Below, one piece after another: positions 5,232 to 16,739 of a DNA stretch of 64,000 bases. The notes beneath the pieces are model-generated. The model saw nothing but the letters and a program-made list of their open reading frames with translations, was not told where the DNA came from and did no database searches. Source of the DNA: Streptomyces huasconensis (GTDB lineage: Bacteria; Actinomycetota; Actinomycetes; Streptomycetales; Streptomycetaceae); assembly GCA_004010275.1 (NCBI GenBank), contig RBWT01000004.1, positions 1 to 64,000 of the forward strand, written 5' to 3'. Within the stretch, counting starts at the first letter, position 1; each line of letters opens with the position of its first letter. The position numbers and the translations under genes were made by a program.

Positions 5232-6785
5232 TTATCGCGGTTCGCTCTGCCCGGCGAGCTCAGCCGGTCGGGCCTGCAGCAATCTGTCCAGCACGCCCAC
5301 CGACGAGCGCGGGCTCATGGCCAACCGGGCGTCCAGCGCCGCGTACCAGTTGCGGTCCAGTCCCTCCAGAAGACGGAGCCGCATCTCGTCCGAGACGTGG
5401 GAGTAACGCGCCGAGACGGAGCCGTCGATGTGGCCCATCCGCTCGTCCATGAGGACCTTGGGCGTGCCCATCTCCTCCATGTGCATCTTGTGGGAGTGCC
5501 GCTCACCGTGTGGCGTGAGCCCTGGGGCGATCGGCACCCAACAGGCCGTCGCCCGCGCCTCGGCCTTGCGTCCCTGAACCAAGGTGCCCGGCAACCACGG
5601 GTCAGCCTGGATCGGTACGAGCGACCCCAGCTTTCCCTCCTTACCTTCCTCGGGGCGATACCTACCGTTTGCGGCCGGGTAGAAGAGGCGGGAGCCGAAG
5701 GCGGAGCGGCGCCAGTGCGCTGCCGTCTCCTCTGCTGTGCGCCCCCTCATGTAATCGAGTTCGGCAATCACCTCGATCACGCGGAGGTGGGTCTCCGCCC
5801 GTACGAGTTCCGGGTGGTTAAGCACGTTCGACACCGTGCCGGTGCTGACACCCGCGGCCTTCGCCACGTCCTTGAGGGTGGGGCCACCGCTCCGCCCCCA
5901 GCGGCGGACCGTGCCGAAGCTGTCGAAGACGAACCTCCTGCCGTGGCAGGGGCAGGGCTGCGGTTGCTTCCGCGTTATGTGATCGCGGAGAAGAGCGATG
6001 AGCCATCGGTTCGCGTCGAGCGTCCGGTAGCTGTCGTCCTTCGGCGGGCACAGCTCGATCTCCCCAGAGTCCAGTTCGACGAGCTGCTGTTCCACGCGGA
6101 TCGCCTCGTCCCGTACGTACGGAGTCTCCAGGCCGACCAACTCCCCGAACCGCATGCCGGTGTAGCCGATGGTGACGTTGGCGACGAACTCGTCATCGCG
6201 GCCCGAGAGCACTGCCATCCGCTCGGCGATGAGCAGGATGCCCAGGGGTGTAGTGGTCACCTTTTCCGGGCCGCGATGACGGACGCGGCCGGCGCGGCGG
6301 CCGCGGCCGCGCCGACGGGTCGCCGGGTTGGCGTCGATCAGCCCTTCTTCCAGGGCATCCGCGAGGACGAGGTGGAGGCGGGAACGGTACGTCGACACGC
6401 TCTCGCTCGCGTATCCCGCTGCCTTGATCTTCTTCTCCCACGCACTGACGTCGCGCGCGGTGATCTCCTTGAGCGGCTTGTCCGCGAACTCTGGGAGGAC
6501 GTGCCCCTCGATGTCCCGCCGGTAGTTGTCCATCGTCGTTGACGCGAGGTCGAGGTCACCGAACCATCGTTCGGCGTACTCTCCGAAGGACTCCGAGCCC
6601 AGTTCCGGGTTCTTCCAGATCTTCGCCCGGATCTTGGCCTCTTCGGCATCCGCCGCCTTCTTCGCCGCGGGCTTGCTCTTGAACTTGATCACGCTGCCGT
6701 GTTCGTCCTTGAGCGTGCCGTACTTGCCCTGCGTGATCTTGTAGCGCCCTCGGAAGTAGTTGCCGCGCTTCTCTCCGTATCCCAT
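5232..6785 (-). CDS. int: Tyrosine site-specific integrase with inserted LacI-type HTH
   Basis: 517 aa; catalyses integration and excision at the tRNA-Ile att sites. Core-binding SAM-like domain about residues 66-160 (YAERWFGDLDLASTTMDNYR). Catalytic residues of the tyrosine recombinase family are visible: Arg212 (TGMRFGELVGL), His426-x-x-Arg429 (LTPHGERHSH), His452 (MGHIDGS) and nucleophile Tyr461 (ARYSHV). Unusually, residues about 301-345 (TLKDVAKAAGVSTGTVSNVL) form a LacI-family helix-turn-helix between the first Arg and the HxxR box. A CPCHGRR segment precedes it. The gene is the last of the leftward element operon, 19 bases after the excisionase, and lies next to the left att site as usual for AICEs. 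Confidence 0.93.
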   Translation of the reverse strand: MGYGEKRGNYFRGRYKITQGKYGTLKDEHGSVIKFKSKPAAKKAADAEEAKIRAKIWKNPELGSESFGEYAERWFGDLDLASTTMDNYRRDIEGHVLPEFADKPLKEITARDVSAWEKKIKAAGYASESVSTYRSRLHLVLADALEEGLIDANPATRRRGRGRRAGRVRHRGPEKVTTTPLGILLIAERMAVLSGRDDEFVANVTIGYTGMRFGELVGLETPYVRDEAIRVEQQLVELDSGEIELCPPKDDSYRTLDANRWLIALLRDHITRKQPQPCPCHGRRFVFDSFGTVRRWGRSGGPTLKDVAKAAGVSTGTVSNVLNHPELVRAETHLRVIEVIAELDYMRGRTAEETAAHWRRSAFGSRLFYPAANGRYRPEEGKEGKLGSLVPIQADPWLPGTLVQGRKAEARATACWVPIAPGLTPHGERHSHKMHMEEMGTPKVLMDERMGHIDGSVSARYSHVSDEMRLRLLEGLDRNWYAALDARLAMSPRSSVGVLDRLLQARPAELAGQSEPR

Positions 6786-8204: not shown

Positions 8205-8800
8205 TTGCTCTCCGCACCCTTGTCGTTCTGTTCGGCGATCCACTTCGCCGCTGCGGCGAGAGTCTTGAAGCCCTTCTCGGCGCAGGTCCAGCGGTACTTT
8301 CCGAAGCCGTACGGACCGTCGGGCGTCGGCAACGCCACGGCCGAGTACTGCTTCCCGTCGCGCGGCCCCCGGCCTTCGCTGATCTGCCCCATCAGGTCCG
8401 TCCGCTCGACCCGCTCGACGTCGCGGCCGGTCACGAGCCACTCGTGAGGCTCATCGTCGAACCAGATCTCTCCCGGCCACAGCAACAGACCCGCGACCTT
8501 GCGGGGCTCCTCGCCGAAGCCAACGGTCCTCGTGGAGGTCTGGAAATCGCTCCCTGCTTCGCCGCTGATGACACGCGCGGCGTGGCAGCATCGGCAGACG
8601 ACGCGCACCGTCTTGCGGGTGTAGCGGCTGCTGTGGTCACAGTCCTCATCGGCGCAGTCGTGCTTGCTGAGCGCTCCCCCGTACGACGGGCGGAAGCCCT
8701 CGTCCTCGCGGATGTCGACCGTCCACGCGGGGCGGCGGCAGTCGATACGGTGCGCCGGCTCACGCCAGCCGAAATACGTGTCCAGGACGTTGAGGTTCAT
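8201..8800 (-). CDS. Unrecognised element protein with cysteine pairs
   Basis: 199 aa, between the prim-pol and ATPase genes with four-base overlaps at both ends (8797-8800 ATGA, 8201-8204 GTGA), so translationally coupled to both. Cysteines occur in clusters (DCRRP, DCADEDCDHS, VVCRCCHAAR), suggesting one or two zinc-binding knuckles in residues 20-75. The C-terminal part is rich in Trp and Gly with a helix ending FKTLAAAAKWIAEQNDKG. Its position implies a role in replication of the element, for example a zinc-dependent DNA-binding accessory factor (inference). Confidence 0.72.
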   Translation of the reverse strand: MNLNVLDTYFGWREPAHRIDCRRPAWTVDIREDEGFRPSYGGALSKHDCADEDCDHSSRYTRKTVRVVCRCCHAARVISGEAGSDFQTSTRTVGFGEEPRKVAGLLLWPGEIWFDDEPHEWLVTGRDVERVERTDLMGQISEGRGPRDGKQYSAVALPTPDGPYGFGKYRWTCAEKGFKTLAAAAKWIAEQNDKGAESK

Positions 8801-9693
8801 GCCGCCCTCCCCTGGTCGAAGCGGCGGGGGCGACGGGCGCCGGCCCGGAAGCCGGAGGCGATCGTCCGGTTGATCTCCATCTCGCCGAGACCGACATGCA
8901 CCGCGGCTTCCGTAAGCCGCTCACTCACGTACGACGCGCTGAGCTCGCCTCCCGCGACGAGCTGCCCCAGCGCGATCGAGGCCTCGTAGAGGGCACTGTT
9001 GCGGCGGCCCATGGGGGCCCGAAGGACGCGCTCCCGCTCGGCATTGACCGCGAAGGTCAGGTAGGCGCCCCGACGTCCTGCCGCGACGAGCGGCACACGC
9101 ACGGGGCGCTGCTTGGGCAGCGGCGCCGGGGTGAGGAGCATCGTCAACCACGCGGGCAGCGGCAGAACTTCGGCGTGGGTCACGACGCTGTACTCCTCGC
9201 CGCCGACGTTGCTGCCCGCACCGACCACGTAGCCACCATGCGCCCGAGTGTCGACCTTCCAGCCAAGGGCACCGGCGGTGTTGCGCAACCGCACCTCCGC
9301 AGGCGCGGCGAAGTAGTGGTGCGTGCCACCGCTCGCCGTGCGGACCGTGTACGTGTCGACGGGCCACTCCTGGCCGGGCTGCTCAGCGAGCAGGGCCAGG
9401 GCGTCCGCGCCGTCGGTCACGCCCTCCGGGGTGCTGGCAGGCGGACGGTCCTCGTCGTTCTTGGGCACGTCCAGGTCGACGACCACGAGAGCGGATGGGC
9501 CCGTCGCAATGCCGATGTTGTACGAGCCGGACGCCCAGCAGTGCCGGACGCGGTCCGCGTCGACCGTGGCGCGGGTCTCCCACGCACGCACAGCCGGACG
9601 CTTCGCGTCAGGAACGAGCGGAAAAACGTGCCACCCACGCGTGATCGCGTCAAAAACGGCTCGGGGCAGCGGGCAAGGGTTGGTGTGGTGCAT
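8797..9693 (-). CDS. Bifunctional DNA primase/polymerase (RepPP-type initiator)
   Basis: 298 aa. ATG at 9693 is preceded by GGAGGTG ten bases upstream. The N-terminal prim-pol domain of the archaeo-eukaryotic primase superfamily shows the catalytic DxD (VVVDLDVP, Asp73/Asp75) and the SGGTHHYF motif (His125). The C-terminal segment (residues 215-290) is helical and ends in a basic stretch. Together with the ATPase it forms the replication module of this element; AICEs with this protein are called RepPP type. It would prime and copy the excised circular form. A structured leader that can mask its ribosome site lies upstream. Confidence 0.88.
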   Translation of the reverse strand: MHHTNPCPLPRAVFDAITRGWHVFPLVPDAKRPAVRAWETRATVDADRVRHCWASGSYNIGIATGPSALVVVDLDVPKNDEDRPPASTPEGVTDGADALALLAEQPGQEWPVDTYTVRTASGGTHHYFAAPAEVRLRNTAGALGWKVDTRAHGGYVVGAGSNVGGEEYSVVTHAEVLPLPAWLTMLLTPAPLPKQRPVRVPLVAAGRRGAYLTFAVNAERERVLRAPMGRRNSALYEASIALGQLVAGGELSASYVSERLTEAAVHVGLGEMEINRTIASGFRAGARRPRRFDQGRAA

Positions 9694-9700
9694 CCTGAAG

Positions 9701-9774
9701 GCACCTCCTGATTCCTGGTTGGGATGGGAGGACCGGAGCAGCGGGCTTCGTTGACCCGTCGGCCGCTGCTCCGG
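9701..9774 (-). promoter_or_regulatory. Structured leader RNA, copy A (upstream of prim-pol)
   Basis: On the minus strand a perfect 12-bp stem (CCGGAGCAGCGG with CCGCTGCTCCGG, 9763-9774 and 9733-9744) encloses an 18-base loop CCGACGGGTCAACGAAGC. It is followed by CCTCCCATCCCAACCAGG and then the ribosome site AGGAGG. CCTCC (9727-9731) can pair with GGAGG (9704-9708), masking the ribosome site. A second copy with a different stem but 15 of 18 identical loop bases lies at 15799-15873. It starts 8 bases after the stop codon of the preceding gene. Confidence 0.6.
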
Positions 9775-9781
9775 GTACATC

Positions 9782-10147
9782 TCAGGCAGCCTGTGCATCC
9801 CTCCAGGCCGCGTATTCGGTGCGGACGTAGTCCCGGTAGTCCTCGGCGAGGACCAGGTCCCGGCCCTTGCGGCTGAGACCGCCATGCGCCACGTCGTATT
9901 CGACGAGCCATTCCGCGGCGACGTTCGCCGCGTCCTCGGCGTCGGCCGCCGCGAGCGCACCGTTACGAGCCTGCTCCTGCAGAGCCAGGCGATCGAGGAG
10001 CGCGGCCTTGCGGAGGCGGAACTCGCGGTCGGTGCTGACATCGGTGGGATGGGAGTCGGACGCCTCAGCGATCAGGCAGATCTCCTGCGCGATCGTCGGA
10101 GCGCCGGCGTAGGCCGCGTTCGGTGCGGGGCGGTTCGGTTCGGTCAC
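9782..10147 (-). CDS. Small helical element protein, unknown
   Basis: 121 aa, mainly alpha-helical and acidic, with an ATGA overlap (10144-10147) to the upstream gene. The middle part (EFRLRKAALLDRLALQEQAR and the Ala-rich segment after it) looks like a coiled coil, and the C-terminus is DYVRTEYAAWRDAQAA. No membrane segment or known motif. It lies in the leftward operon between genes of unknown function and the replication module. The family is not recognised beyond being of the kind common in Streptomyces AICEs. Confidence 0.65.
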   Translation of the reverse strand: MTEPNRPAPNAAYAGAPTIAQEICLIAEASDSHPTDVSTDREFRLRKAALLDRLALQEQARNGALAAADAEDAANVAAEWLVEYDVAHGGLSRKGRDLVLAEDYRDYVRTEYAAWRDAQAA

Positions 10148-11764: not shown

Positions 11765-11856
11765 GGTGCTACGTGCTAGGAAGCTGGTGAGGGGCTGCTT
11801 TGGGTGCTAGCGGGGGTGCTACCGGTAGCAGGTCACCCCGCTACCGGTAGCACCCG
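11765..11856. promoter_or_regulatory. Cluster of GTGCTA repeats, candidate transfer (clt) locus
   Basis: In 92 bases just past the 3' end of the translocase gene, GTGCTA occurs at 11766, 11773, 11804 and 11816 on the plus strand and inverted at 11848. The last copies lie in a perfect 16-bp inverted repeat (GGGTGCTACCGGTAGC at 11814-11829, complement at 11840-11855, 10-base spacer), each arm holding the palindrome GCTACCGGTAGC. Streptomyces TraB-type translocases recognise short repeats in a clt locus, so this is a candidate. It could also be a terminator for the translocase gene. Confidence 0.5.
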
Positions 11857-11863
11857 TCCTCGG

Positions 11864-14095
11864 CTAAGCGGCACCCCTTGATCCGTCACGCTCCGCGATT
11901 GCCTTGCTGACGTCGGCACGGACGATGCCGCGCCGGGTGGTGCGCTCTCCCTCGTCGGTGACCCCGGCGACGCCAGTGGTCTTGATGCCGTGGGGTTTGA
12001 GCGCGAGAGTCACGTTCTCGCCCTTCCAACCGCCGTAGACCTCGGGCCGGAGTTCGGCGAGCCGAGCGGCGATCCGCTCGTTCCACACGCGCTCCTCGGA
12101 GACCGGAACGACGGCGGCGACGGCGGCGAGCAGGTCGTACGACGGTCCCGACGGCGTCTCGCTCTCCTCGCCGAGCGCGATGCCGGAGAGCCTGCGTTCG
12201 GCCTTGCGCAGTGCGAGCGCCCGCTGAGCGACGGCCTCCGTCGCCGGGTCATCCAGGTACGCGGTGCGTACGACGGTCGGCACTGACGTGGCACCGACGA
12301 GGTAGCCGTTGCCCGCGTCACCCTCGGGTCGGAACGCCGTGGCGCGGATGCCGTTCTTGTACGCGGACGTACCGAGGATCATGTCGTTCTCGATCTGGCC
12401 TGCCACGCGCAGACAGAACCGGATCGAGACGTTGCCGCTGACACCCGTCGGGAGCGAGTCCTTGTCGGGCCGCTGCGTGGCGAGAACCAGGATCACGCCG
12501 AGCGCGCGCCCCAGCTTGATGACGAACTCGGCGTCTTCTCCGGCCTGCTTGCCGTACTCGGGGTGAGCGAAGAGGTTCTGGCACTCGTCGAACACCGCGA
12601 GCAACGGCCACAGCTTCAGCGAGCGCTTATTGGCGATCTCGCGTGTGATCCGCTTGTCCGGGCACAGGTCGCGCGGCAGCTTCTTCATCGCCGCCGCTCG
12701 GCGCATGACCTCTTCCCGAAGCAGCTTCAGGGAGTCGGCCGCGTACCTGATCGACTCGTCGTCGATACCGGAGACGAACCGGTGCGAGACGCACTTGAGG
12801 GCGTCCAGGTCGCCGGTTGCCTTGTTCTCGTGGAGCCACAGTTCCACGGTCGGGTCGAGGGCGGCGCCGCACGCGATCACGCGGACGGACGCCGTCTTGC
12901 CCTGGCCGGGCAGGGAACCGATCAGCACGTTGTGCTGGATCAGCGGGACCACCTGGCCACGGCCCCGCGGGTCGATACCGAACGGGCTGCCCTTGAAGAT
13001 GTCGTGGCGCTTGGCGTTGGCGAGCTGCCACTTGACGAAACCGGTCTTCGAGAGATCCCTGTCACCGACCCACAGGACGAGCCGCCCTTCGTGGATCGAC
13101 GGATCGGCCTCGGGCCAGACACATCCCAGCGGGCGGCGCAGGCCTGAGGCGAGTCGGCTCCGGCGGTCGGCGACGTCGGCCACCGTCACGCCGAGCGGCA
13201 AGTCGATGTCCGCTCGCCAGCCGGGGCCTTCGCGAGTGATGGGGGCGACGAACGTAATGCCGTCCTCTCCCTTGGCCACCGCGCTCGTGATCTGGCTGAT
13301 GCCGATCGAGGCCATGGCCCTGACCACGATGTCGCTGGTCAGCTTCTGCACCTCGGCCTTGATGACCGCACGGGTTGCGAGCGGCGCATCCGCCGGCGCC
13401 CCCTTCCAGCCCAACCAGCACAGCGCAAGAACCCCCACGACCAGTCGGGTCGTGAATGACGCGCCGAAGATCAGGTACAGGACCGCCGCGACCGTGATCG
13501 GGAGCCCGAGAAGGACGAGAAGCGTCCGAAGCCGAACCCTGCGATCACGCTGACGTGAGAGCTTCAGGTACAGCTCGGTGTTCTCGCGGCGGGCCTCTGC
13601 CTGGCGGAGTGGGTCCCTCTCGGCGTCGCGCGCCCAACGTCCGAGCCGACCGAGGGTGTTGAGAAGCCCTCGGGGCGCCCGCCACACCAGCTTGGGTACA
13701 TAGAGGAACGGAACCCGTACCGCGTGGAAGGCCACGGTGTGCCCGGCATGACCGGCGAGCCACCCCATGGCCTCCTTGAACTCCCGGGCCGACCTCGCCC
13801 ACGCCGGGATGATGTCCAGGCGCTTGGAGTTCTTGATGCGGTCGATCAGGCCAGGGCCTGAGTCGACCGGCGCGGGATCATCGACGATCGTCGGCCTCGC
13901 ACCCGTTTCTCCGCCCCATGACGGATCATCGGCGGTGCCGTGCACGGCCCCTGTGTCGCGGGCGGCCCGCGCCTTGTCGAAGTTCAGCACCTCACCCTCC
14001 GCGCTGGTGTCGGAGGGTTTCTTCATCTCTGCTTCCAGACGTGCGAACAGCTCGTCCGTCTCGGGCTCTTCATCGCCCTCGTGCTTCACTGGCAT
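11864..14095 (-). CDS. tra: FtsK/SpoIIIE-type conjugative DNA translocase (Tra)
   Basis: 743 aa; single-protein, double-stranded DNA pump of AICE conjugation, acting at the hyphal membrane. Acidic N-terminus (1-80), amphipathic region 80-180, two membrane helices about 190-230 (TLLVLLGLPITVAAVLYLIF; LVVGVLALCWLGW), then the motor domain with Walker A GSLPGQGKT (393-401) and Walker B LLAVFDE (about 498-504). The sequence after 660 contains a probable winged-helix DNA-recognition end. AAGGAA precedes the ATG at 14095. Length fits pSAM2 TraSA/TraB proteins. A repeat cluster that may be its target lies past its stop. Confidence 0.92.
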   Translation of the reverse strand: MPVKHEGDEEPETDELFARLEAEMKKPSDTSAEGEVLNFDKARAARDTGAVHGTADDPSWGGETGARPTIVDDPAPVDSGPGLIDRIKNSKRLDIIPAWARSAREFKEAMGWLAGHAGHTVAFHAVRVPFLYVPKLVWRAPRGLLNTLGRLGRWARDAERDPLRQAEARRENTELYLKLSRQRDRRVRLRTLLVLLGLPITVAAVLYLIFGASFTTRLVVGVLALCWLGWKGAPADAPLATRAVIKAEVQKLTSDIVVRAMASIGISQITSAVAKGEDGITFVAPITREGPGWRADIDLPLGVTVADVADRRSRLASGLRRPLGCVWPEADPSIHEGRLVLWVGDRDLSKTGFVKWQLANAKRHDIFKGSPFGIDPRGRGQVVPLIQHNVLIGSLPGQGKTASVRVIACGAALDPTVELWLHENKATGDLDALKCVSHRFVSGIDDESIRYAADSLKLLREEVMRRAAAMKKLPRDLCPDKRITREIANKRSLKLWPLLAVFDECQNLFAHPEYGKQAGEDAEFVIKLGRALGVILVLATQRPDKDSLPTGVSGNVSIRFCLRVAGQIENDMILGTSAYKNGIRATAFRPEGDAGNGYLVGATSVPTVVRTAYLDDPATEAVAQRALALRKAERRLSGIALGEESETPSGPSYDLLAAVAAVVPVSEERVWNERIAARLAELRPEVYGGWKGENVTLALKPHGIKTTGVAGVTDEGERTTRRGIVRADVSKAIAERDGSRGAA

Positions 14096-14102
14096 TTCCT
14101 TC

Positions 14103-14163
14103 CTGCATGGGAGGGATCTGCCGACGCCCGGCCCTACCGGCCAAAGCAGCGGCCGGGCGTCGG
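14103..14163 (-). promoter_or_regulatory. Leader hairpin upstream of tra (variant of the shared leader)
   Basis: A perfect 13-bp stem (CCGACGCCCGGCC at 14121-14133 with its complement at 14151-14163) around a 17-base loop lies 26 bases before the tra start. Downstream on the minus strand follows CCCTCCCATGCAGG, similar to CTCCCATCCC-ACCAGG of the two leaders at 9701 and 15799. The loop sequence is different, so it may be a diverged relative or simply a terminator. Confidence 0.4.
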
Positions 14164-14191: not shown

Positions 14192-15451
14192 TCAGGTCGG
14201 CGACGGTTCATCGGCCCCGGGCTCGGAGGCGCCGTGACCGTTCACGACGACGAGTTCACCGCGCGAAGGGCGCGGGCCCCGTTCCTCGTCGAGCTTCACG
14301 AAGACGCTGTGTACGTAGCTGGGGGCCCGGGTCGCGAGGCGAGCCGTATCGCGAACGCTGAGGCCGTTGGTCCACCCGTCTTCGATCGCCGACCGGGCCT
14401 CGTCGGCACTGAGCTTTGAGGCCTCTTCGGCTTCTGCTGTGTCCACCTCGTCGGCGTCGGGGTGTTCAGGTGAACGCTCGCAGCTGTCCACCCCCTGAAC
14501 TGGGGTGACGTCAGCGAAGAGAAGCTGTGGGTTGGCCTGGCTGCGGATATTCGCACTGGCTCTGACCATCTGCTCTCGCGTCTGAGCAGCGAGCGCCGAT
14601 GCCGCGGGGTCGGGCTTGAGCCCTTCTCCCCACGGCGACGGGAGTTCGACGGTCGCGAGCCCGGCAGCATGGCGCCGCGCCGCGAGCTGGTCGAGGAGCT
14701 TCTGGCGCTGTTCACCGTTCGCACCCACGTCGGCGCGAGCAACGGCGGCGGAGAGGGCGCGGGTCAGATGCTGCCCCCACAGCCTGCCTCGTTGCTCTGG
14801 CGTCTTGGCGGCCAGTCGCTCGGCAAGCTTCACGGCCCGCTCAGTCGCTCGGTCCCGGGTGATCTTGGCCGCGTCCCGATCGCGCTCGGTGAGACCGAGT
14901 CGGGAGAGGAGACGCTCGCGTGCTTCACGACCGAGCATGGCGAGGAGCCCGTTGGACTCGGCGCCGGGCTTGCGGTGCCGGAGATCGATGCCCATGGCCA
15001 GGTGCCACAGGAGAGCGGCCATGACCGGACCGACGAAGGCACGGACCGTGCCGCCGATCGCTCCCGACTCGGCATACGCCGGGATGATCTGAACTCCGGT
15101 GATCACCCAGACGAGGACGCCAGGAGCGCCCGGCGTTCCATTCGGACCGTTCAGGTTCTGCCGCGCGAGGAGCGAGTTGGCGAACAGGGCCAGCTCAGCC
15201 GCTGCGAACATCGCGACGCGCTCGGCCGTACTGCCCATGTCCAGGTAGTGGGCTGCGAATCGCCACGACGTGTCCGAGGAATACGCGGTGCAACCGAGGG
15301 CGGCCAGCCCGGCAATCCAGATCGCCGGCGGTACCATACGGCGCATCCGCCGCGCTCCTAGCCACGTGAGCCAGGTGAGGAGGACGAGCGCGCCGAGGGC
15401 GAGGTACTGCGTCGTGGGGCTCAAAGAAGGAAGGTGCAGGCCGTACATCAC
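14192..15451 (-). CDS. Spd-type polytopic membrane protein with C-terminal HTH-like region
   Basis: 419 aa. The start is GTG at 15451 (overlapping the previous stop) or the ATG at 15448. Four N-terminal hydrophobic segments (LALGALVLLTWLTWLGA; PPAIWIAGLAALGCTAYSS; MFAAAELALFANSLLA; GGTVRAFVGPVMAALLWHLA) span about residues 15-160. A long charged helical region (LTERDRDAAKITRDRATERA) and a C-terminal segment resembling a helix-turn-helix (GWTNGLSVRDTARLATRAPS) follow. This layout matches AICE/plasmid transfer membrane proteins encoded just upstream of the FtsK-like Tra. Probable role in intra-mycelial spread. Exact family uncertain. Confidence 0.75.
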   Translation of the reverse strand: MMYGLHLPSLSPTTQYLALGALVLLTWLTWLGARRMRRMVPPAIWIAGLAALGCTAYSSDTSWRFAAHYLDMGSTAERVAMFAAAELALFANSLLARQNLNGPNGTPGAPGVLVWVITGVQIIPAYAESGAIGGTVRAFVGPVMAALLWHLAMGIDLRHRKPGAESNGLLAMLGREARERLLSRLGLTERDRDAAKITRDRATERAVKLAERLAAKTPEQRGRLWGQHLTRALSAAVARADVGANGEQRQKLLDQLAARRHAAGLATVELPSPWGEGLKPDPAASALAAQTREQMVRASANIRSQANPQLLFADVTPVQGVDSCERSPEHPDADEVDTAEAEEASKLSADEARSAIEDGWTNGLSVRDTARLATRAPSYVHSVFVKLDEERGPRPSRGELVVVNGHGASEPGADEPSPT

Positions 15452-15795
15452 GCCGCCTTCTGCATCTTCCGCAGCCGCGGGCTGTTGATCTGCTTCCGCA
15501 GGTTCGCGACGACGACGAGCTGAGCCGCGTACGCCGCGTTCATCCGCTGGATCTCGTCGTCCCGGCCCGCCTCCAGGAGCTCACCGAGCACTTCCTTGGC
15601 GACCAGCTCACGCGAACGGCGCTGCTCGTCCGTCTCGCCGCGCGATCCGAGGAACAGGTCGCGGAAGTCGTTCTCGACGCCCTCGCTGAAGAACAGCTCA
15701 TGCAGCTCGCGGGGGATGGCGATGTCGACCCCGCCGGCCAGCTCGATGAGCTCGACGACGGTAGCGGCCTCCTGGTCGCCGATGTACATACGCAT
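15448..15795 (-). CDS. Small element protein, unknown
   Basis: 115 aa, ATG at 15795 with GGAGAG four bases upstream inside a structured leader. Acidic first half with several helices (ATVVELIELAGGVDIAIPRE; LHELFFSEGVENDFRDLFLG) and a basic coiled-coil-like end (LVVVANLRKQINSPRLRKMQ). Overlaps the next gene by four bases, so translation is coupled to the Spd-type protein. No family recognised. Confidence 0.62.
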   Translation of the reverse strand: MRMYIGDQEAATVVELIELAGGVDIAIPRELHELFFSEGVENDFRDLFLGSRGETDEQRRSRELVAKEVLGELLEAGRDDEIQRMNAAYAAQLVVVANLRKQINSPRLRKMQKAA

Positions 15796-15798
15796 TGA

Positions 15799-15873
15799 TC
15801 TCTCCAGGTCCTGGTCGGGATGGGAGAGCCAGCGCGGTGGGCTGATTTGACCCGTCGGCCACCGTGGCTGGCT
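15799..15873 (-). promoter_or_regulatory. Structured leader RNA, copy B
   Basis: On the minus strand AGCCAGC (15867-15873) and CGGTGG (15859-15864) pair with CCACCG (15835-15840) and GCTGGCT (15827-15833) around the 18-base loop CCGACGGGTCAAATCAGC. CTCCCATCCCGACCAGG follows. GGAGAG, the ribosome site (15800-15805), is complementary to CTCTCC at 15823-15828. The latter overlaps the base of the first stem, so the two helices exclude each other. Loop, spacing and downstream segment match the leader at 9701-9774 while stem sequences differ. Confidence 0.6.
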
Positions 15874-15889
15874 GAAGTGTGGGAAGTGC

Positions 15890-16261: not shown

Positions 16262-16739
16262 CAAGGCCTCCTTGTAGGCGAAGGGGATGGTCCGGCTTCT
16301 CCGTTCCGCCGTTGCCACGGTGGAAGCGGCCCCGAGCCGGAGGTTCGGGCGCGTCATCGTCACTGCTCTGACGCCAGCAGGGCGGCGCGCATCGGGTGGC
16401 GCCCCACGGGCTGACCTCCAGAAATGAAGGGATGATCCCGAGGGGCGTTCTCCAGAGCCGATGCGCGGGGAAGTGGCCGCCGACGGCCCTCACCCCGGCC
16501 GCCTGGGGAGCGGGGACTCGCACCCCGCTGGCTTGTCACGCTGTTGAGTTCTGAAGGCTCGGACGCTCCCTCCGTACTCGCCCACGCGGGCTTTCCGTCG
16601 GCACGCAGCCCCTAAAGAGGTCTTGTCCTCAACACCTCTTTAGGAGTTGCCAAGACTATGGGGTAAGACACCACCGCTCGTCAAGACCTCTTTAGGAGTC
16701 GTATGCTGAAGATGTCGAACGACAGGACGGTGAGCTCAG
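16262..16739. promoter_or_regulatory. Divergent control region with three CCTCTTTAGG operators
   Basis: 478 bases between the leftward operon and the rightward GntR gene. ACCTCTTTAGG occurs at 16634-16644 and 16686-16696 and inverted (CCTAAAGAGGT) at 16611-16621. For the leftward operon a -35 TTGACG (16679-16684) and -10 CATAGT (16655-16660) have an 18-base spacer; for the GntR gene a TATGCT -10 lies at 16702-16707. The operators overlap or flank both promoters. By analogy with pSAM2 KorSA, the neighbouring GntR protein probably represses both units. Confidence 0.6.

Follow-up and report, generated by a model that had tools for sequence, protein, structure and literature searches.

Hairpin leader RNAs before genes of integrative elements in Streptomyces, with a loop that is usually shared within one element

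The question raised by this locus is why two genes in a 64,000-nucleotide stretch of Streptomyces huasconensis DNA (the window) are preceded by hairpins with nearly the same loop on entirely different stems. Copy A occupies the leader on the minus strand (9694–9781) between the stop codon of a 121-aa gene (9782–9784) and the ATG of a prim-pol gene (9693). It consists of a hairpin (9733–9774) with a perfect 12-bp stem (arms 9733–9744 and 9763–9774, 100% complementary), an 18-nt loop (CCGACGGGTCAACGAAGC, 9745–9762), which loop comparisons described below mark as an element-specific tag, and a C-rich stretch (CCTCCCATCCC, 9721–9731) that, from its sequence and pairing energies, can pair with the prim-pol ribosome site AGGAGG (9704–9709). 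The first-pass annotation of this DNA had reported this stem and loop, as well as CCTCC at 9727–9731 and GGAGG at 9704–9708, and all are present where it placed them. Its description of copy B, also on the minus strand, was accurate in that 15 of the 18 loop bases (CCGACGGGTCAAATCAGC, 15841–15858) are those of copy A and that GGAGAG (15800–15805) has a matching CTCTCC (15823–15828). The stem is indeed an entirely different one that still pairs, but it is not perfect, as the hairpin (15828–15872) is made up of 6 bp, an internal loop (CA/C) and another 6 bp; CTCTCCCATCCC, from 15828, leads on to the ribosome site (15800–15828).

Taken alone, the two window copies make a weak statistical case for the loop. 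When up to 3 mismatches are allowed, the loop pattern matches only copies A and B in the window, against a chance mean of 0.56, and two or more matches occurred in 8 of 100 shuffles; the C-rich pattern matches both copies and one further place with 3 mismatches (chance mean 0.36), and no shuffle reached three. Neither a blastn search of copy A against plasmids nor one of copy B against phages gave a match. It is the homologues that settle the matter.

The genes concerned belong to a run on the minus strand, read leftward. At its head is a gntR-DTE RNA (RF02989, 16346–16496, 112 bits in Rfam), which is a separate, known family. There follow a 123-aa gene, copy B, a 115-aa gene (15448–15795) that clustering assigns to a conserved family of proteins of about 100 aa (fam7), and a 419-aa protein (14192–15451) with no family above cut-off, in what we take to be the position of spd genes. 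Next is a traB/FtsK-like transfer gene (11864–14089), whose EccC and FtsK matches are weak and far below cut-off and whose best plasmid match is annotated FtsK. After traB the run continues with small genes, copy A, the prim-pol replication gene (8797–9693; Prim-Pol PF09250, E=7e-42), an AAA protein, an excisionase and an integrase. The integrase ORF (5232–6785, minus strand) includes a strong match to a LacI-type HTH at residues 303–346 (E=2e-16), inside the tyrosine recombinase. Directly after traB the palindrome GCTACCGGTAGC occurs twice (11814–11855), possibly as a transfer or regulator site, and repeats of CTCCTAAAGAGGT, direct and inverted, lie at 16600–16700 before a divergent gntR-like gene, of which they are perhaps the operator; a stretch related to the latter repeats adjoins copy B in the element L016.

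An exact two-part pattern (loop plus C-rich stretch), searched over genome contigs, gave 14 loci. Thirteen are leaders of this kind, 12 from Streptomyces and one from Kitasatospora, and the other (L009) is a chance match, excluded from alignments and leader counts. Leaders found in this way precede either prim-pol-type genes or a gene starting MRTYVG or similar, and both kinds are present within one element in L008, L014 and L017. Because exact matches to the loop and the C-rich stretch defined the 13 loci, the invariant columns of the first alignment are partly a matter of construction. A covariance model (R1) was built from 19 copies. Of 392 Streptomyces genomes, two of which (the window's own and G105) had supplied training copies, it matched 101 at E<1e-3 (about 0.4 expected, the E-values being rough) and 156 at E<=0.1 (about 39 expected by chance). 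Copies A and B, both in the training set, match R1 at 9694–9783 (103.2 bits) and 15791–15879 (71.3 bits). With a second model built from 77 copies (R2), matches at E<=1e-3 were obtained in 32 of 394 genomes of the class and 8 of 137 genera, those outside Streptomyces being weaker (1.3e-6 to 7.9e-4). The covariance-model search of actinobacterial genomes proposed in the first-pass annotation has therefore brought to light further copies before element genes. Not counting traB leaders, there are up to four copies in an element. As that annotation had also supposed, there is no named RNA family with this loop in Rfam 15: no family reaches its gathering score at the leaders, and what permissive searches return stays far below cut-off. 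Among the IMG/VR pattern matches listed, the loci inspected (L021–L097) showed no such leader, nor were any found in a literature search that most subscription papers lay outside. That these leaders are a new family of RNAs, absent from Rfam, is well supported.

The stem proposed from two copies covaries significantly among homologues. In the alignment of 77 copies fitted to R2, both sides change in all 12 pairs, 96.1% of cells are paired, and covariation is 0.383 compared with 0.116 after shuffling, a value reached in none of 500 shuffles; 103 cells have changed on both sides vs 18.1 in the shuffled data, and slid versions of the stem are at most 68% paired. Such an alignment leans towards its model, whereas a MAFFT alignment does not; the latter has both-side changes in 6 of the 12 pairs and a covariation of 0.294 vs 0.132 shuffled. 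A chance origin of the hairpins, against which the pattern tests in the window are weak by themselves, is excluded by genome spread, covariation and the permutation of loops described below.

In the strong copies the position of the hairpin is fixed, on the coding strand and immediately upstream of the ribosome site, and the genes concerned are functionally linked. They encode prim-pol proteins, DnaB/DUF3987 helicases, tyrosine integrases, excisionase-like HTH proteins and fam7 proteins, and also a DUF4097 protein and a DUF3307-like protein (the latter just below cut-off). Some leaders are followed by genes that, judging by their motifs, resemble C5 methyltransferases but have no Pfam match. 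On plasmid NZ_CP107792 the tagged gene is annotated as a bifunctional DNA primase/polymerase. The association with replication and transfer genes of integrative elements, first proposed for the window, is thus seen across homologues.

The conserved, covarying leader RNA of the first-pass annotation therefore stands, and the one loop that it gave is real, but a fixed loop is not what is conserved. It is loop identity within an element that is conserved, so that the loop is an element-specific tag common to several genes. The simpler reading of two copies with one loop was rejected, the family having many loop types. Among the best 84 matches (the strand-reversed match in the window removed, traB copies retained where they passed the score cut), loops have a mean similarity of 0.67 within an element (50 pairs), 0.12 between elements for different genes (2944 pairs) and 0.40 between elements for the same gene (492 pairs), while the corresponding values for stem arms are 0.57, 0.39 and 0.58. 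Stems therefore go with the gene and loops go with the element. Permutation gave the same result for 11 elements, one per loop-type group, some of which are close variants (0.686 vs 0.161, 0 of 20000), and for the 28 elements with at least two non-traB copies, the first and last of these being used (0.756 vs 0.292, 0 of 10000); the underlying loop table was typed by hand after the loops had been seen and excludes traB leaders, elements with a single copy and, in L195, L197 and L203, a few additional same-type copies. Even small changes are shared, as both copies of L192, 4.5 kb apart, carry a one-base change relative to other type I loops (GGGTC to GGGCC), and the two loops of L199, like the two of L209, end in GGACAAC.

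The sharing of loops also held prospectively. When 20 regions were extended past the DNA already read, R2 found 18 further leaders, 17 of them non-traB, and all 17, situated in 13 of the 20 regions (seven gave none), match the loop type of their own element, two of the 17 places having been listed previously with their loops then unread. The loops are the same or have few changes, mostly in the 3' half, and the successes include the rarer ending GGACAAC (L241, L251) and CGTCTCACCACA (L257); each single success is weaker because 9 of the 13 regions have the common type III, two of these nine with the GGACAAC ending. A test by structure only was applied to 20 of the 87 fam7 genes that lack an R1 match within 20 kb. 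It detected a hairpin upstream of 17 of the 20 (L264, L265 and L280 not having the expected one), and in the three fam7 genes scored as without hairpin the loop motif is visible by eye; for 17 elements, the best loop similarity to another hairpin is 0.746 in the own element vs 0.233 in foreign ones. There are exceptions. L191 and L224 have two unlike loops each, in L176 and L178 the loop of a second and weaker hairpin does not resemble the first, the traB copy is unlike the other copies in L184, L189 and L203, an unrelated hairpin precedes fam7 in the plasmid L211, and L280 is without the standard tag before fam7 in the structure-only test. With these exceptions, loop sharing within elements is well supported. 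A transcription terminator or mRNA-stability hairpin would account for a strong GC-rich stem between genes and would leave the conservation and sharing of loops unexplained; as no T-run follows the hairpin in the copies inspected, it is extremely improbable that the leaders are of this kind.

The identity of loops within elements and their divergence between elements imply a trans-acting, element-specific reader, and such a putative reader is the best inference from the data. We favour a process, which we consider probable, where the hairpins are cis-acting tags in the mRNA just before the ribosome site and an element-specific diffusible factor would recognise the loop and shift the translation of all tagged genes together. 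The tagged genes of an element, traB apart, usually having the same loop, would form a post-transcriptional regulon for replication, integration/excision and fam7, and the different loop of another element would keep the control of the two elements apart. Three things are inferred here: that there is a reader, in which direction it acts (repressor or activator), and that translation is what it changes.

Loops could also be shared without any meaning for a reader, if template switching or gene conversion copied them, and sometimes flipped them, between GC-rich inverted repeats. Inversions do occur, and the relevant cases mostly involve a third leader which the first-pass annotation, right about its two copies, had missed. 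This is a related hairpin before traB (14121–14163, minus strand) with a perfect 13-bp stem and the loop GCTGCTTTGGCCGGTAG. The traB leaders are a sister class and have their own loops, which the rest of the element mostly does not share. Compared with the traB leaders in L185 and L189, the traB loop of the window is inverted, and this reverse complement of the L185/L189 kind is found on similar stems in seven elements (the window, L012, L016, L017, L020, L192 and L193), all of them type I. In L279 both leaders found, that of fam7 and a second one (near 1395 and 8299), carry an inverted loop. These cases indicate that loop flips between inverted arms happen, in L279 in concert. Such a change would be more readily understood with a pairing RNA as reader, or as the outcome of copying, than with a protein that recognises a single orientation, a thin argument from one case, and the relatives of L279 are not decisive against a protein reader because the best of them are only about 80–92% identical in the genes with good matches, with one gene at 54%. 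Neutral copying does not readily explain why many diverged loop types retain a core close to CCAARGA, why the traB leaders of the same elements are mostly not homogenised, and why stems stay gene-specific and covary, and it appears quite unlikely to us as the source of the shared loops.

Inverted loops might equally be expected of a site acting at the DNA level, where repeat and core would be recognised in the DNA itself or in a hairpin formed by a single strand (in replication start, transfer recognition or recombination) and stand before genes incidentally; that the genes concerned are replication and transfer genes would suit such a site. The strong copies, however, lie directly before the ribosome site on the coding strand, and the arms differ between copies of one element, unlike what is known of the arms of recombinase sites or operators. 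Loop type moreover follows TraB identity weakly (r=0.34, 276 pairs, in a correlation of protein identity with loop similarity that was aimed at the reader and is confounded by linkage). A DNA-level site is therefore very improbable as the explanation of the hairpins.

The first-pass annotation had interpreted the leader as a translational switch in which the C-rich stretch hides the ribosome site. In the 76 of 77 copies with a recognisable ribosome site, 73 of them unique, pairing of the C-rich stretch with its own site is stronger than with swapped sites (-7.46 vs -6.76 kcal/mol, 0 of 5000 permutations, relatedness ignored), the own pairing being the better one in 46 of 73 copies. The two sequences appear to be coupled as supposed, but occlusion is not special to these leaders, as the predicted accessibility of the ribosome site is equal for leader genes (64) and other genes of the same loci (266; p=0.66). 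Of the proposed switch, the covarying leader RNA before the ribosome site stands and switching by site hiding is not established. We keep translation control as the likely output of the hairpin because of its position, not because of sequestration. The preference for the own site would also fit a cis-only attenuator, in which the hairpin and a CTCCC:GGAG helix would cause a fixed low translation or coupling to the upstream gene without any trans factor, as would the stop triplet (in any frame) that is found within the first 11 columns of 32 of the 77 aligned copies. But the coupling test takes no account of relatedness, accessibility does not set the leader genes apart, and an attenuator leaves the identity of loops across the genes of one element unexplained, so that we regard it as unlikely.

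Three guesses may be offered as to the reader that we favour. The fam7 protein, itself tagged and so possibly auto-regulated, is a possible though doubtful candidate. We are rather more doubtful about an antisense RNA transcribed across a copy in the reverse direction and acting by loop-to-loop pairing, and another protein of the element is a somewhat unlikely candidate. Stretches complementary to the loops elsewhere in the element do not exceed chance in 31 elements (longest 8.45 vs 8.29 nt), and an antisense promoter signal seen in a redundant set (p=0.0005) lost significance once redundancy was removed (p=0.07, against p=0.01 for the sense control). No small protein common to every locus was found, the loci ending at 10–20 kb.

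A fam7 gene lies within 20 kb of 22 of the 23 multi-copy leader clusters, where its own leader is often among the copies counted; for all 114 leader clusters the figure is only 56. Conversely, an R1 leader is that near to only 57 of 144 fam7 genes, a gap that is partly due to R1, as the 20 genes checked by structure mostly have the tag. Across 392 genomes, relatedness being ignored, 61 have both leader and fam7, 40 the leader only, 54 fam7 only and 237 neither; fam7 is present in 13 of the 20 extended regions. L195 and L204 have near-identical loops and visibly diverged fam7 proteins. The fam7 protein of the window has no Pfam family above cut-off, only one PDB match (E=0.81) and no match among plasmids at E<=1e-3, and its predicted structure (from a 6-sequence alignment, mean pLDDT 65) gave no PDB match at E<=0.001. 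The plasmid NZ_CP107792 is matched by the relatives from L198 and L253. In pSAM2, korSA lies close to pra, and in the window a GntR-like gene, identified by clustering, is close to fam7. Pra activates rep, xis and int in pSAM2 according to the available text of two papers (PMC3218068, PMC8584621). That fam7 might be Pra is no more than a lead, drawn from gene order.

Several known systems resemble parts of this picture. Antisense copy control by loop-loop contact is exemplified by CopA/CopT of R1 and by repZ of IncI/IncB plasmids, and is represented in Rfam by PK-repBA (RF01089). As in CopA/CopT-type systems, a hairpin stands upstream of a replication gene; its loop, element-specific here, may likewise set specificity, and changes of the loop would then create new compatibility groups. 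On the other strand, the conserved CCAA core becomes UUGG, in keeping with the YUNR turn known from loop-loop antisense systems. Unlike in those systems, several genes share one loop here, and neither of the components looked for in the elements, a separate complementary RNA and an antisense promoter, was found. The traB leaders resemble the PK-repBA type in that their loop contains UUUGGC (UUUGGCG is present in the traB leaders of L016 and L017), but the traB leader of the window matches PK-repBA with 28.2 bits only, below the cut-off of 45. The gntR-DTE RNA is likewise a structured RNA of the same element and gene run in the window; it differs in fold and sequence, and a scan of 17 other element loci found none at gathering score. 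Phage coat repressors act with one protein on several mRNA hairpins. One reader for several hairpins is also the principle of the ANTAR-target RNAs, as far as described in the accessible part of PMC8164766. In both of these regulons the situation is unlike the present one, where the loop differs from element to element.

The likeness to pSAM2 lies in the genes, as the Pra targets named in the available text (PMC3218068, PMC8584621) are of the kinds tagged here. Control of pSAM2 by KorSA and Pra is described as transcriptional in that part of PMC8584621 which was accessible, and an element-specific RNA tag, if real, would add a post-transcriptional layer over replication, integration and transfer-region genes and would make the way in which Pra-like activators act directly testable. 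A shared tag would also offer a molecular basis for compatibility between elements, which carry out, together with plasmids, the conjugation that makes up a large part of gene transfer in Streptomyces (available text of PMC9513070). In a more tentative extension, one to which we give rather less than even weight, the leaders would be an RNA regulon coded by address, with one private loop and one specific factor per element; loop types would then correspond to compatibility groups among integrative elements that share a cell, and new groups would arise by concerted loop change, including inversion as in L279.

Some minor observations concern individual loci. The window's own genome has two further loci (L176, L177) with leader-like hairpins, each with a different loop. 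An element at L171 encodes a stand-alone RapZ C-terminal domain protein (6156–6554; PF22740, E=8e-24), and there is a RapZ-related ORF in L176 and a weak one in L260. In other genomes, L223 has four hairpins with a loop beginning CAGGTCGCC within about 1.5 kb, and L231, which is outside Streptomyces, has two copies with identical loops within 0.9 kb.
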